NCBI GenBank assembly: GCA_944323595.1
Contig: CALUTF010000012.1
Span: forward strand, 1 to 44,394
DNA length: 44,394 nt
Source of the DNA: Candidatus Gastranaerophilales bacterium
GTDB lineage: Bacteria; Cyanobacteriota; Vampirovibrionia; Gastranaerophilales; Gastranaerophilaceae
Reading direction: 5' to 3'
Below the pieces are notes generated by a model. That model searched no databases. It saw nothing but the letters and a program-made list of their open reading frames with translations, and was not told where the DNA came from. Below, piece after piece: positions 78 through 38,489 of the stretch; position 1 is the first letter of the stretch; the number at the start of each line of letters is the position of its first letter. The position numbers and the translations under genes were made by a program.

Positions 78-111
78 ATGTAATAAAAAATGTAGTTAAA
101 TTGTTTGGCTT

Positions 112-325
112 AGCTTGTTGGCAGCCTGCGCTACCGTACCTCTCCTCAAATATGACATTAAGTCATATTCTCGTCGGCAGAGTGCTAATCGCCTGTATAA
201 AAATATTAAATTGTCAAAATCAGCTTGTTGGCAGCCTGCGCTACCGTACCTCTCCTCAAATATGACATTAAGTCATATTTTCGTCGGCAGAGTGCTAATC
301 GCCCATAAAAATATTAAGTTGTCAA
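112..325. repeat. two-copy 110-bp tandem repeat with tRNA-Val 5'-end fragments
   Basis: Two copies of a unit of about 105 bp start at 112 and 222 (period 110) and differ at only a few positions. Each has an inverted repeat, AATATGAC-N5-GTCATATT, in its middle. Each ends in GCTAATCGCC followed by an A/T-rich tail, which matches the minus-strand tRNA-Val 5' end and its upstream flank at 66-105. The string TGCGCTACC, also part of the tRNA D arm, recurs near the start of each copy. The units therefore look like partial tRNA-region duplications carrying a palindromic insert. I find no credible gene between 78 and 388. Confidence 0.8.
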
Positions 326-353
326 TTTTACATAGCGCTTCGCGCAGTTGTTT

Positions 354-380
354 ATGTAGGTTGGGTTTACCAACCCAACA
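354..380. repeat. REP-like hairpin (TGTAGGTTGGG family)
   Basis: TGTAGG is followed by a perfect hairpin, GTTGGGTT-TACC-AACCCAAC. The same architecture of an 8-bp stem and 4-nt loop occurs at 11858-11883 and 43774-43793. It resembles the TGTAGGTTGGGTT repeats I know from cyanobacterial intergenic regions; that resemblance is from memory. Confidence 0.6.
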
Positions 381-388
381 GTAAAATT

Positions 389-901: not shown

Positions 902-1123
902 CTATTGCTCAAAATCAAAGAGCTCTTTAATCGGAACTTCAAGGGCATTAGAGATTTTTATCAATGTTTTTAGCCCAGGCTTATTTATATTGGCTTCGAT
1001 TTTACAGAGATAATCCAAACTTATCCCGCTTATTTCCGCCAGTTTTTCCTGTGTTAAACGAGCGTTTTCTCTTAGCGTTTTTATTCGTTTCCCCAATTTA
1101 TTGTAAAGTTCATTTTCGTTCAT
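902..1123 (-). CDS. XRE-family helix-turn-helix regulator, 73 aa
   Basis: This is a single Cro/C1-type DNA-binding domain. Residues about 10-65 carry the family pattern: basic helix 1 (KRIKTLRENA), helices 2-3 TQEKLAEISGISLDYLCKIE, then a P-G-L-KTLIKISNAL stretch. There is no sensor domain, so it is a minimal repressor type. It is divergent from the prepilin gene that starts 66 bp away. The space between them holds a symmetric site (TTTACTGG-N7-CCAGTAAA) and a third half-site close to its own start, so autoregulation and control of the prepilin are likely. No clear Shine-Dalgarno sequence precedes its ATG. A second regulator of the same design sits at 37368-37586, also beside a prepilin gene. 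Confidence 0.88.
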   Translation of the reverse strand: MNENELYNKLGKRIKTLRENARLTQEKLAEISGISLDYLCKIEANINKPGLKTLIKISNALEVPIKELFDFEQ

Positions 1124-1133
1124 TTGACTAATC

Positions 1134-1178
1134 TTACTGGAAATGTTAATATAATTTTACTGGTAAATATCCAGTAAA
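1134..1178. promoter_or_regulatory. candidate operator of the XRE/prepilin pair
   Basis: The intergenic region has a perfect 8-bp inverted repeat, TTTACTGG (1156-1163) and CCAGTAAA (1171-1178), with a 7-bp spacer. An extra half-site TTACTGG lies at 1134-1140. A plus-strand -10-like TATAAT (1150-1155) lies between the half-sites, and TTGACT (1124-1129) is a poor -35 at 20 bp. Binding of the adjacent XRE protein here would cover the prepilin promoter and its ribosome binding site. The regulator-site match is inferred. Confidence 0.6.
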
Positions 1179-1189
1179 GGTGGGTGATT

Positions 1190-1921
1190 TTGAAAAAAGC
1201 TTTTACTTTGGCAGAAGTATTAATAACCCTTGGAGTTCTCGGTGTGGTTGCGGCGATGGTTATGCCTACGTTGATGTCAGAATTTCAGGAGAGGGTTTGG
1301 ATTACACGCTTAAAGCATACTGCTGCGGTATTATCGCAGGCTTATTTAATGGCTTCAAAAGATTACGGTGTTTCTGCGGAATGGAATCATAACGGCAGTG
1401 ATGAAGAACGTGCTGAGCGCTATTATAATTATTTGAAAGATTATATACAAAAACCTCTTATTTCTGATAAAAGATTTAACTACCAAATTAAAGAGTTAAG
1501 TGGTGACGGAAATTTTGCTCCAGGTATGAATAGTTCTTCAAATTATGGTTTTGTTTTAAACAACGGAACAATAATTTCTATTATGAAAACTGCATCTAAC
1601 GGACAGGGAGAGGATGCTGAAAACGGGCATGAATATGGTGAAAACCATTATTTTGTTGGTTTGGTAGTTGATGTAAATGGTCAGCAAAAACCAAATGTTT
1701 TAGGTAAAGATGTCTTCCTTTTATTTTTAGAACCTAATAAAGTTGTTGTTGAGGGATATGACCTCTGGTGGGTAACACGCCGTTCTTGTTCTACGACAGA
1801 ACACGATGCCTGGTGGGCAGGAGGTGCTTGCGCAACCTGGGTTTTAAAAATGGGCAATATGGATTATCTGCATAGAGAACTTACTACAGAAGAGTGGGAT
1901 AGCATTAAAGTAGGTAATTAG
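1190..1921 (+). CDS. type IV prepilin-like (pseudopilin) protein
   Basis: The N-terminus is a class III signal: short KKA, then FTLAEVLITLGVLGVVAAMVMPTLM, with the conserved Glu at +5 of the mature protein and a hydrophobic helix for membrane insertion and pilus packing. Prepilin peptidase would cut after Ala (A|FTLAE) instead of the usual Gly. The C-terminal part has the motif DVNGQQKPNVLGKDVF, shared in form with the prepilin at 37695-38432 (DANGYAKPNQYGRDIF). I chose TTG at 1190, since AGGTGG lies nine bases upstream. GTG at 1184 would add two residues but sits almost on the ribosome binding site. The gene is divergent from an XRE regulator and ends before a strong hairpin. Whether it is a structural pilin or a secretion pseudopilin is not visible. 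Confidence 0.88.
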   Translation: MKKAFTLAEVLITLGVLGVVAAMVMPTLMSEFQERVWITRLKHTAAVLSQAYLMASKDYGVSAEWNHNGSDEERAERYYNYLKDYIQKPLISDKRFNYQIKELSGDGNFAPGMNSSSNYGFVLNNGTIISIMKTASNGQGEDAENGHEYGENHYFVGLVVDVNGQQKPNVLGKDVFLLFLEPNKVVVEGYDLWWVTRRSCSTTEHDAWWAGGACATWVLKMGNMDYLHRELTTEEWDSIKVGN

Positions 1922-1946
1922 TTATTACATGTTTTTATAATCAAAA

Positions 1947-1980
1947 AATAAACCGTCAATTATAAAATTGACGGTTTATT
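1947..1980. terminator. bidirectional terminator between prepilin and adhE
   Basis: A 15-bp perfect stem, AATAAACCGTCAATT pairing with AATTGACGGTTTATT around a 4-nt loop, lies between the convergent ends of the two genes. It has A/T-rich flanks on both sides. Confidence 0.85.
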
Positions 1981-2009
1981 TTATCAAATGGCTTTAATCT
2001 TTAAGCTAT

Positions 2010-12203: not shown

Positions 12204-12237
12204 TTTTAACGGATGGCTTTTAGTGTATAATATTTTT
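12204..12237 (+). promoter_or_regulatory. promoter of comF, probable leaderless transcript
   Basis: TATAAT (12226-12231) is followed by six bases and then the ATG at 12238, so transcription would start at the start codon. A weak -35 (TTTTAA, 12204-12209) lies 16 bp upstream. Confidence 0.45.
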
Positions 12238-12888
12238 ATGAAAACTTTTTTTATCGGACTGCTGGATTGGATTTATAAAAAGAAATGCTATTTTTGCAGA
12301 AGTTCAAAAGAATGTGTCAAAATGTGTTCCAAATGCTATTGCGAACTTGAACATCTTAATCCTGCAGTTAACAGAATTGTTAATTCCAAAAATGTCTATT
12401 GTGCAGGTGTTTATTCAAAAAATTTGCAGAAACTTATCCGCGGGCTTAAATATCATAACCAGAGAGATTTAGCATATTATCTGGCTAAATTTATGTATGA
12501 ATACTGGATTGAATTAACCGATGCCGTAGATTATCAAATCGTCCCGGTGCCAATTTATCCTACACGTCTTAAAAAACGTAAATACAATCATATGGATTTA
12601 GTCGCGGAAGAATTTTCAAAACTTAGCGGCTATCCGGTAAACAAAGAACTGATATCCCGAATTAAAGATACAAAAGCACAGTATAAACTTAAGCGTGCTG
12701 AACGTGTTGAAAATCTCCAAAATGCTTTTAATGTCGATGTAACGAAATTTGATAAACGCCGCAGGATACTTCTTATTGATGATATTTGTACAACAGGCTC
12801 GACTTTTGAAGAAATGATAAGAGAGTTTGAGAAAAATAATATTTATGATATAACTTGTTTTGCGGCAACAACCCCGTTTGAGGATTAA
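12238..12888 (+). CDS. comF: ComF-family phosphoribosyltransferase-like protein
   Basis: The N-terminal zinc-binding cysteines are Cys17-x2-Cys20 and Cys30-x2-Cys33. A linker with the family's conserved LKYHNQRDLAYYLA follows, then a type I phosphoribosyltransferase fold with VPVPIYPTRLKKRKYNH and the PRPP loop LLIDDICTTGSTFEEM. ComF proteins take part in natural transformation, working with the DNA-import helicase at the inner membrane face. At 216 aa the length is typical. ATG 12238 is preferred over GTG 12223, which lies upstream of the -10 box. Type IV pilus genes follow within 2 kb, which fits a competence role, but no other com gene is in view. Confidence 0.9.
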   Translation: MKTFFIGLLDWIYKKKCYFCRSSKECVKMCSKCYCELEHLNPAVNRIVNSKNVYCAGVYSKNLQKLIRGLKYHNQRDLAYYLAKFMYEYWIELTDAVDYQIVPVPIYPTRLKKRKYNHMDLVAEEFSKLSGYPVNKELISRIKDTKAQYKLKRAERVENLQNAFNVDVTKFDKRRRILLIDDICTTGSTFEEMIREFEKNNIYDITCFAATTPFED

Positions 12889-15022: not shown

Positions 15023-16753
15023 CTATTTTCCAGTTACTTCTTTCGCATAATTACCGCTGCGTTTTGATGATTTTTGTTTAGGAAGTTCTTTTGGTGGTGT
15101 TGATTTTTTAGAAACATTTTTGGTGTTTTTATTATTACCCTTTTCTTCTTGCGGTACTTCTTCTGTCATGCCCAATTCTTCTTCTGACATGTTGGTTATC
15201 TCAAATTCATACCCCTCGGAGAGCATTCCATCTTCAACCAATTCATCTACATTATCCGATATCAGTTGAAGTTTGTGTAGTCTTAAATTGCTATTTAAAA
15301 GGGAATCTTTCATGTTTCTGAAAAATGCATAAACATCCTCTACGCTTTCAGCTTCTCCCTGAATATCTATGAGTCCGTTATTCTGTGCTGAAAAATATGT
15401 TATCCATAATGTTTTCGGTACAGATGCGCCGAGTGCAGAATAACTCATAAGTTTAGTCTTATTATTTTCAAGAGTGGTTTTGATGCTATCTTGTTCATTG
15501 AATTGGTTAGATTTATTACCGTCTGAAAATTTCTTAATTTCATCATCTATGCTTGCTATTTGCTTATTAATTTCTTGCACTTTTGCAGATGAATTTTGTG
15601 CAGTTTTCGGAAGAAGCATCATCAATAAAAGTACAGGAACAACAAGTATTGCACAAGCTATGCCGGATATTTTCAGGGCTGATGTAGGTGATATTTCAAA
15701 TTCATTTTCCCCGATAGAAATTTTTACCGGTTCATTGTCATCTCCGCCGGTTACCGCCTGTTTCTGGATAAAATCAAATTTTACAGGATAGTTCCTTGTT
15801 CTTGGCGCAGCAATTCCTATGCTATTGGCCGAAATTTTCAATACATAATCCGGTAAAACAGACAAGCTTGCTGGAATAAGTTCTTGTTTTTTAAATTGGT
15901 TATTATCAAGATAATCAACAGTACTTTCTGTGTTTATTTTTTTTGCAATTAACTCAGCACTGACCATGTTTGTTTCTGATACAATATAGAGATAATTGGC
16001 AGGGTAACTCATTAAGGTAATATTCGCCGATGAGCATATTGCATTATAAATTTCATCACCTTCAAATGTTTTAATTGCAAGCGGTTCTTCATAAAAATCT
16101 ACAATGTTTTTACCTACCATAGATATAATATAATAGCCGCTTGAGCCTATTAGCATAAGATTCCAGGTGATACCGTCTTTCATTTGGGTTTCAGTAACCC
16201 CAGAGTAATCAAGAGCTTTTAAAAGGGAGGTTAATGACATTTCCATTCCCTGTAATGTTGCTCCAATTTCGGTTAATGCAGCTGAAATATTATCAATAAC
16301 TGATTTTTGGATTGCAGTATAGAGAATTTTTCTCATATCGTTAGAGACACTTGAGTTAGAATCTGTCCACGCGACAACCGGTTCATGTCTTTTGAATACA
16401 TAAGACTGCTCTACATCAGAAATGAGGGATTCTTTAACAGCATCATCACTCAGAATCAGCGGGCGTTCTGCAATACCAAATGAAACCATTGGCATGTTAA
16501 GAACAACATTGCTTTTGGGGATAATGTGTAATTCTTCAAATAGCTCCTGTGCAGCTTCTTTAAACTGATTGTAATCAGCTAATTCACGTAAAGTTTCGTT
16601 GTAATCGAGAGGTCTGCAAGCATATGCCGCAACTGTTTTTGTCGTATTGTCGAGTTGAATCATTTCCAGACCGACGCCCGGAGTTACTGACATATATACA
16701 GTACCCTTACTTTTTACACCCAATTGAGATAAAATATTACTTTGCGCAACCAT
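15023..16753 (-). CDS. PilM-PilN fusion, type IV pilus assembly
   Basis: At 576 aa it holds two pilus proteins in one. Residues 1 to about 320 follow the actin-like PilM/FtsA layout: beta-rich start, VVLNMPMV, a helical 'ESLISDVEQSY' region and LTSLLKAL, then a C-terminal half-fold. A single membrane helix lies at about 360-382 (ALKISGIACAILVVPVLLL), then a coiled coil (387-440), then a ferredoxin-like domain with PKTLWITYFSAQ and the DVYAFFRNMKDS helix, as in PilN. A Lys/Ser/Pro-rich tail (540-576) is extra. In most bacteria PilM and PilN are separate and bind through PilN's short N-terminal peptide; here that link would be covalent. It is the first gene of the operon. A TATAAT lies 26 bp upstream of the ATG at 16753, with a weak -35. 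Confidence 0.82.
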   Translation of the reverse strand: MVAQSNILSQLGVKSKGTVYMSVTPGVGLEMIQLDNTTKTVAAYACRPLDYNETLRELADYNQFKEAAQELFEELHIIPKSNVVLNMPMVSFGIAERPLILSDDAVKESLISDVEQSYVFKRHEPVVAWTDSNSSVSNDMRKILYTAIQKSVIDNISAALTEIGATLQGMEMSLTSLLKALDYSGVTETQMKDGITWNLMLIGSSGYYIISMVGKNIVDFYEEPLAIKTFEGDEIYNAICSSANITLMSYPANYLYIVSETNMVSAELIAKKINTESTVDYLDNNQFKKQELIPASLSVLPDYVLKISANSIGIAAPRTRNYPVKFDFIQKQAVTGGDDNEPVKISIGENEFEISPTSALKISGIACAILVVPVLLLMMLLPKTAQNSSAKVQEINKQIASIDDEIKKFSDGNKSNQFNEQDSIKTTLENNKTKLMSYSALGASVPKTLWITYFSAQNNGLIDIQGEAESVEDVYAFFRNMKDSLLNSNLRLHKLQLISDNVDELVEDGMLSEGYEFEITNMSEEELGMTEEVPQEEKGNNKNTKNVSKKSTPPKELPKQKSSKRSGNYAKEVTGK

Positions 16754-37367: not shown

Positions 37368-37586
37368 TTATTTTATCGGTATAAGAGTATTTAAATCAAC
37401 ATCAAGAGCTTTTGCTATAGAAATTATAGTAAACAGTGTAGGATTTGCAACACCCCGTTCAATCATATTGACAGTATCAAGTGAAATTCCTGCCTTTGTT
37501 GCAAGGTTAAGTTGTGATATTTTGCGTTTTGCACGTTCCACACGCATATTTTTTGCCAGCTTTTCATAGTATTTCTTAATATCCAT
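37368..37586 (-). CDS. XRE-family helix-turn-helix regulator, 72 aa
   Basis: This is a single Cro/C1-type domain. Residues about 12-68 include RAKRKISQLNLATKAGISLDTVNMIERGVANPTLFTIISIAKAL. It has the same size and single-domain design as the regulator at 902-1123, with a partly similar core (GISLD). It is divergent from a prepilin gene and shares a 108-bp upstream region with it. That region has a near-consensus promoter for the prepilin and a directly repeated 7-bp site, so repression is likely. The ribosome binding site is weak. Confidence 0.9.
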   Translation of the reverse strand: MDIKKYYEKLAKNMRVERAKRKISQLNLATKAGISLDTVNMIERGVANPTLFTIISIAKALDVDLNTLIPIK

Positions 37587-37603
37587 TTCTTAATTCTAAT
37601 ATA

Positions 37604-37645
37604 TTGACATCACGAGTATACGGAATATAATATAGATAATACGGA
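37604..37645 (+). promoter_or_regulatory. prepilin promoter with directly repeated candidate operator
   Basis: TTGACA (37604-37609), a 16-bp spacer and TATAAT (37626-37631) form a near-consensus promoter. ATACGGA occurs at 37618-37624 (in the spacer, up to the -10) and at 37639-37645 (near the start point), 21 bp apart, two helical turns. The adjacent XRE protein is the natural candidate to bind here. Confidence 0.65.
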
Positions 37646-37694
37646 TTATATTACGTGTTATTTATGTTATATTCATAATTTGAGGTTGTGTTTG

Positions 37695-38432
37695 ATGAAA
37701 AAGAGCGGACGAAAAGCTTTCACACTGGCAGAAGTACTGATAACTCTCGGTATAATAGGCGTTGTTGCAGCTTTGACTATACCTACGCTTATCAACCATT
37801 ATCAAAAAGTCGTGATGAGTGCCCGTAATAAGAAATTTGTGAGTTCAATAAATCAGGCAGTGCTTCGTTCTACTGCTGATAACGGTCCTCCTCATGAATG
37901 GCCTAATCATATCCTGTATCATGATCCGGAATCTTTATATGACTGGTTTGATGAATACATTATGGGATATATGAAAATTTTAAAAAACTGCCGGCATGAT
38001 CCTATCGGCTGTATTGCGGAATATCGCTGGTGTGAAACCGCAGACAGATGCTGGTCTGCTAACGGGATAGGCAACAGTAATGTTTTATATGTGTTTAATG
38101 ACGGCAGTATGATTATTGCACTTACCGGTGGAGGTTTAAATAATGACACCGGTATCACCACAGGTTTAACTATCCATATTCGTTTTGATGCCAACGGTTA
38201 TGCAAAGCCTAATCAGTACGGTCGCGATATTTTTTCATATAGATTTACGGTTGCAAAAAACAAGTTTTACATAACCTGTGATAACCATAAAAACCTGACC
38301 GGCGGGACTGTTTCTACAAATAACAGCAGAACTTATCTTATAGAAAGCTGCAAAACTGATCCGCAGACCTGTAGTTGTTTGTTAATGAAAGATAATTACG
38401 AATTTAAAAATGATTATCCGTACAGATTATAA
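37695..38432 (+). CDS. type IV prepilin-like (pseudopilin) protein, 245 aa
   Basis: The N-terminus MKKSGRKAFTLAEVLITLGIIGVVAALTIPTLI is a prepilin signal with a basic leader of eight residues, Ala at -1, Phe at +1 and Glu at +5. The body is Cys-rich (about eight, e.g. CRHDPIGC, CETADRC, CKTDPQTCSC), suggesting disulphide bonds in the exported domain. The motif DANGYAKPNQYGRDIF matches the form seen in the prepilin at 1190-1921. ATG 37695 has GAGGT eight bases upstream; TTG 37680 lies further up without support. It is divergent from an XRE regulator and ends before a terminator. Confidence 0.9.
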   Translation: MKKSGRKAFTLAEVLITLGIIGVVAALTIPTLINHYQKVVMSARNKKFVSSINQAVLRSTADNGPPHEWPNHILYHDPESLYDWFDEYIMGYMKILKNCRHDPIGCIAEYRWCETADRCWSANGIGNSNVLYVFNDGSMIIALTGGGLNNDTGITTGLTIHIRFDANGYAKPNQYGRDIFSYRFTVAKNKFYITCDNHKNLTGGTVSTNNSRTYLIESCKTDPQTCSCLLMKDNYEFKNDYPYRL

Positions 38433-38456: not shown

Positions 38457-38489
38457 AAAAAAGCCTCTCGTTTAATTGAGAGGCTTTTT
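38457..38489. terminator. bidirectional terminator
   Basis: AAAAAGCCTCTC pairs with GAGAGGCTTTTT (arms 38458-38469 and 38478-38489) around an 8-nt loop. It serves the prepilin on the plus strand and the malQ operon on the minus strand. Confidence 0.9.

Follow-up and report, generated by a model that had tools for sequence, protein, structure and literature searches.

Regulators of the RstR (CTX phage), HipB-type antitoxin and DicA kinds are small HTH_3 proteins with a divergently transcribed target and palindromic operators in the shared promoter, and XRE1 and XRE2, the two regulators described here, resemble them in each of these respects, the operators being candidates. The targets of the known proteins are phage, restriction or toxin genes, whereas the gene facing XRE1 and XRE2 encodes a prepilin, and unlike the known systems a single Gastranaerophilales genome carries many independent regulator copies with different operators. 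Neisseria pilE/pilS, the fim switch and pap are systems with several alternative pilin genes that can be expressed separately. Gastranaerophilales have this in common with them; unlike those systems, no inversion or repeat switch was seen, and each paired prepilin has a dedicated trans-acting regulator. The prepilins resemble type IV pilins (TIGR02532, PF07963; PilA, FimA) in their class III signal, N-terminal helix, C-terminal cysteine pair and modelled beta sheet, and differ from PilA and FimA in being numerous scattered single genes, in carrying an additional DxNG..PN..G.D.F motif and in a weak fold match (Z 4.3). The components are ordinary; the design, in which many portable private repressors each sit on a single prepilin, did not turn up in the literature searched. 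That literature held nothing relevant on XRE–prepilin pairs, the S. suis SrtR paper mentioning only an unrelated prepilin peptidase.

Divergent XRE–prepilin pairs in the window and its relatives

The window, the whole stretch of DNA analysed here (44,394 nucleotides), is contig C12 of a 2.05-Mb Gastranaerophilales genome in 77 contigs (G000), from a gut-dwelling lineage akin to the cyanobacteria. The first-pass annotation had described a divergent XRE/prepilin module occurring twice in the window, and both copies are present as described.

902–1123, minus strand: XRE1, single-domain HTH_3 regulator of 73 aa (ORF and profile match; orthologues 79% identical in G001, 74% in L302)
1124–1183: shared control region of pair 1, the 60-bp gap between XRE1 and prepilin 1
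1124–1152, plus strand: predicted sigma-70 promoter of prepilin 1, TTGACT-17-TAATAT, 9 of 12 consensus bases (promoter scan)
1134–1140, plus strand: candidate XRE1 operator half-site TTACTGG within the -35/-10 spacer, kept about 16 bp upstream of the start of XRE1 orthologues
1157–1177: candidate XRE1 operator TTACTGG-N7-CCAGTAA between the -10 and the prepilin start (homologue conservation)
1184–1921, plus strand: prepilin 1, 245 aa, type IV prepilin-like (KA^FTLAEVL; ORF and prepilin profile)
1945–1982, plus strand: hairpin, 17-bp perfect, likely terminator 3' of prepilin 1 (inverted-repeat search)
37368–37586, minus strand: XRE2, single-domain HTH_3 regulator of 72 aa (ORF and profile match)
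37587–37694: shared control region of pair 2, the gap between XRE2 and prepilin 2, 93–108 bp depending on the prepilin 2 start
37604–37631, plus strand: predicted sigma-70 promoter of prepilin 2, TTGACA-16-TATAAT (promoter scan)
37618–37637: candidate XRE2 operator copy 1 (ATACGGAATATAATATAGAT), overlapping the -10, 4 mismatches to the XRE2-homologue palindrome
37639–37658: candidate XRE2 operator copy 2 (ATACGGATTATATTACGTGT), 3 mismatches to the same palindrome
37695–38432, plus strand: prepilin 2, 245 aa from the ATG at 37695, 250 aa if from the TTG at 37680 (ORF and prepilin profile)
38459–38489, plus strand: hairpin GCCTCTC...GAGAGGC with a T run, likely terminator 3' of prepilin 2 (from the sequence itself)

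The ATG at 37695, which follows TTGAGG, is probably the start of prepilin 2 rather than the TTG of the mechanically called ORF.

Both regulators are confident HTH_3 matches (E 2.8e-13 for XRE1 and 1.9e-13 for XRE2; PF01381 scores of 50.1 and 50.7 bits against a gathering score of 23), and no sensor domain is visible in these short proteins. None of the named XRE subfamilies RstR, HipB, DicA and SlrR scored over its curated NCBIfam cut-off, the best weak matches being RstR (44.7 bits, cut-off 80) and the Y4mF-type HipB (38.7, cut-off 71.65). At L182, L222, L297 and L044 unrelated prepilins have as neighbour a divergent XRE of one subtype, about 91 aa long (SLCMFAYENDIPRSTLSRIE), and L182 and L222 also have a conserved TCCCATATATGAGA-like site. 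Small HTH proteins of another family, DUF6471-like and 69–80 aa long with weak to moderate Pfam matches, occupy the same divergent slot beside about a dozen further prepilins (L015:979–1221, L097:1705–1914, L172:2369–2605, L304:2178–2387, L348:2143–2379 and others); they are like the XRE proteins in slot, size and orientation and differ from them in HTH family, and no literature was found on DUF6471-like proteins divergent from prepilins.

With its signal, its cysteine pair and a structural model that gives weak matches, the partner protein is in all likelihood a type IV pilin. Prepilins 1 and 2 reach 21.2 and 22.1 bits with the TIGR02532 model (cut-off 16.3), match only prepilin models above cut-off, and both carry a class III signal; two C-terminal cysteines are invariant in alignment A1. 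The prepilin 2 model (pLDDT 80.6) combines a long N-terminal helix with an antiparallel beta sheet, and its relevant structural matches are type IV pilins in the correct register but weak (PAK pilin, FimA, PilA4), the PAK pilin giving a Foldseek E of 0.048 and a Z of 4.3 over 113 residues; nothing can be concluded from other pilin families being missing from the VIA-align list. The DxNG..PN..G.D.F motif that the first-pass annotation had pointed out is carried by both window prepilins and by 44 of the 64 paired ones. Alanine before the cleavage site, noted there as well, is found in both window prepilins and is not a hallmark of the module, the residue being Ala in 38 and Gly in 26 of the 64 paired prepilins and Ala in 66 and Gly in 38 unpaired ones. 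Secretion and assembly of these pilins are presumed, and machinery of the T4P/T2SS kind is represented by four T2SSE ATPases over cut-off in the genome and a PilN domain protein in the window. This PilN-domain protein (15023–16753) and a ComF-like phosphoribosyltransferase (12223–12888) suggest that other parts of the window serve type IV pili or competence, and a published report describes type IV pilus genes in a termite relative (PMC5877343).

Family searches, from which the own-genome coordinates were taken, returned 22 prepilin hits and 27 HTH_3 genes over cut-off in this genome, and nine of the prepilins stand head to head with an HTH_3/XRE gene (on C60, C25, C7 twice, C27, C21 and C11, and both window pairs); adjacency at the chance rate, which the first-pass annotation had raised as the counter-case, would give well under one. 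A tenth pair is decayed, its XRE gene being divergent from a mere prepilin tail (L044). In a nonredundant set of 64 pairs, gathered across the genus and the family and from named genomes, every pair is divergent and none co-directional, with a median gap of 101 bp. Paired fractions of 39 of 101 and 25 of 61 among the collected loci are biased because most loci were picked by similarity to paired prepilins. A less biased count of divergent pairs per prepilin hits gives at least 4 of 13 in G003, at least 5 of 61 in G004, at least 3 of 55 in G009 and at least 1 of 9 in G001, and none among the matches listed for G008 (10 prepilin hits) and G012 (123), so that the six relatives together hold at least 13 divergent pairs for about 271 prepilin hits. 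The paired share is uneven, from nine of about 22 prepilin hits in the window's genome to none of 123 in G012 among the matches listed, and many prepilins in pair-bearing genomes have no XRE partner. Pairing is family-wide but far from universal, and the earlier observation of two modules understated it. G012 itself is a 1.8-Mb relative with 30 XRE hits, and many of the open frames behind its prepilin hits are 320–400 aa long.

Candidate operators and their association with the regulator

Generic palindrome enrichment was weak (15 of 37 control regions against 16 of 60 control promoters at p<0.05; Mann-Whitney P 0.07), and homologue footprinting was used in its place, yielding candidate operators for XRE1, XRE2 and a few others; no firm operator emerged for most pairs, above all those with long XREs. 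The inverted TTTACTGG repeat reported in the first-pass annotation for pair 1 was correct, and the half-site at 1134–1140 can be added to it. TTACTGG-N7-CCAGTAA is unique in its own genome and is kept with orthologous XRE1 in other genera. Orthologues of XRE1 that lie away from any prepilin (G010, G012, G019 and G021) have the inverted TTACTGG-N7-CCAGTAA upstream, in some cases with one to a few mismatches, and, some 16 bp ahead of the start codon, a CCAGTAA half-site, spaced as in the window. At L302, in a genome of the named set, an XRE 74% identical to XRE1 faces a prepilin only 19% identical to prepilin 1, and palindrome and half-site are the same with matching spacing. A pattern search blind to prepilins found the exact palindrome in only four places in 59 genomes, each adjoining an XRE1-family gene: the window, G001, the orphan XRE1 in G019, and G033, whose XRE1-family gene points away from a long prepilin of a different class (FSLIELLVTL). 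An XRE1-type operator and regulator stand beside an FSLIE-type prepilin of at least 484 aa at L368:1250–3021, where the locus end cuts the frame; this prepilin class resembles frames of about 640 aa on C48 of the window's genome.

The 'direct ATACGGA' repeat that had been proposed for pair 2 makes better sense as a pair of degenerate copies of the palindrome ATACNGAATATATTCNGTAT. XRE2 homologues have ATACNGAATATATTCNGTAT upstream both where the prepilin is orthologous (G003) and where it is a different one (G039, G010 and, weakly, G063), and only one of 200 random stretches reached a match with 4 or fewer mismatches.

By sequence likeness, the control region follows the regulator and not the pilin. 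Where XRE proteins were at least 60% identical and prepilins less than 35%, control regions were similar in 9 of 11 comparisons; where prepilins were at least 50% identical and XRE proteins less than 37%, they were similar in 1 of 19. The pair-by-pair co-variation of regulator and operator by which the first-pass annotation would have its idea judged is therefore found, and it supports the suggested family in which every prepilin gene has a regulator and an operator to itself, the nine paired regulators of this genome being at most 43% identical to one another with control regions no closer than background. Sequence comparison shows swapping of regulators between pilins in C12:37k, C21 and C7:58k, whose prepilins are 67–82% identical while their regulators share 26–33% and their control regions are at background likeness; the closest match of the C21 regulator is L165 from another genus (83%), where the prepilin belongs to the same clade as these three. 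Strict co-evolution of regulator and pilin was considered and dropped in favour of swapping, the Mantel correlation (r 0.33) being driven by a few orthologous pairs and the Spearman coefficient over all comparisons being 0.01. Because linkage alone would keep an XRE gene and its adjacent control region together, it is conserved operator arms around a diverged spacer that carry the functional argument, and the XRE1 operator of G001 has its arms kept and its spacer different.

Cassette movement and competing explanations

Comparison of gene order among relatives indicates that the cassettes are gained and lost as units. The site of pair 2 is empty in G001, where the module is absent and 133 bp, in place of about 1130 bp, separate the flanking genes, and in G003 the module is present with the left flank and synteny ends at the prepilin stop. 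G002 and G003 lack pair 1 between tRNA-Cys and adhE; in G001 it is present with a frameshifted prepilin 1 orthologue, so not every cassette is maintained. One 1.2-kb cassette lies in unrelated contexts on C25 of the window's genome and C6 of G003. The cassette boundaries showed no shared end motif, no direct repeat and no recombinase, and for phage carriage only two weak relatives turned up in IMG/VR. The right end of the contig (41477–44388) encodes phage-type proteins (DUF2213, LPD3) and is likely a prophage edge. A short repeat of about 110 bp occurs near tRNA-Val (window 101–384; L276:1–655), with several copies in G002.

That two common families merely happen to lie side by side might be argued from the expansion of both and from G012, with so many prepilin and XRE hits and no pair among the matches listed; the counts reject it, with nine of 20 prepilins paired in the window's genome (P ~2e-12, for 27 HTH_3 genes and 2000 genes assumed), all 64 pairs divergent and operators conserved, and we attach practically no weight to it. 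The first-pass annotation had suggested bistable or alternating display, each XRE–prepilin unit being an epigenetic on/off switch that leaves one pilin per cell at a time. Regulators and operators that are private within one genome, and strong promoters lying under an operator, speak for such a switch, yet there is a single repressor per locus and no second antagonist. With one regulator per locus and a prepilin as its divergent partner, no mutual repressor pair of the CI/Cro type is present. No tandem repeat was detected at pair 1 (TRF), no invertible segment was seen at either pair, where the only flanking inverted repeats were a terminator and short imperfect matches, and negative autoregulation, the arrangement proposed here, normally damps variation. 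We regard bistable or alternating display as unlikely.

A selfish or addiction-like part, in which silencing of a costly surplus pilin by the XRE protein lets the cassette enter a genome and stay there by a logic akin to zygotic induction or toxin-antitoxin systems and without adaptive pilin switching, would fit the gain and loss of whole cassettes in unrelated contexts, the resemblance of the regulators to HipB/RstR-type proteins and the decayed pairs (prepilin 1 of G001; L044). The partner is nevertheless pilin-like with no match to a toxin family, orphan XRE1 regulators persist without a prepilin, and prepilin coding regions stay conserved between genera, which makes this account rather unlikely. 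Activation of the divergent prepilin by its XRE protein is very unlikely: XRE proteins can act as dual regulators, and a divergent layout is neutral as to the sign of control, but in pair 1 one site occupies the -35/-10 spacer and another the stretch from the -10 to the start codon, and in pair 2 the sites cover the -10 and DNA past it, positions from which repression is inferred. The prepilin promoters are also often near consensus already, which favours repression; promoters with at least 10 of 12 consensus bases were found on the prepilin strand of 33 of 61 control regions and on the XRE strand of 6, against 9% of shuffles.

A model of private pilin silencing

The reading we consider likely is that portable, self-regulated small repressors privately silence individual type IV prepilin genes. 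The module would be a portable cassette of one small autoregulated XRE repressor, its private operator or operators and one prepilin gene. The XRE protein, probably as a dimer, would bind palindromes in or just downstream of the strong sigma-70 prepilin promoter and repress the prepilin, and since the operators also precede the XRE start, it could be expected to limit its own synthesis. Because the regulator–operator pair differs from cassette to cassette, each pilin may be kept silent separately, until the repressor belonging to it is removed, an arrangement from which the cell would presumably benefit. Over evolution cassettes have entered and left genomes whole, and the half made up of regulator and operator has been rejoined to different prepilins. 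More tentatively, and with the balance of our judgement against it, these genomes could hold a combinatorial repertoire of dozens of prepilins, a sizeable share of them behind interchangeable switches without cross-talk, with pilins turned on singly and cassettes traded between species.

Gut Gastranaerophilales carry up to more than 100 prepilin-like genes without a known purpose, and the evidence for private, swappable silencing of many of them turns this into a testable question of when and why each pilin is made, whether for adhesion, DNA uptake or phage avoidance. The cassettes also offer a natural set of many small, orthogonal repressor–operator pairs with specificities that the sequence itself reveals, and switches swapped between pilin genes would allow each pilin to be controlled separately.
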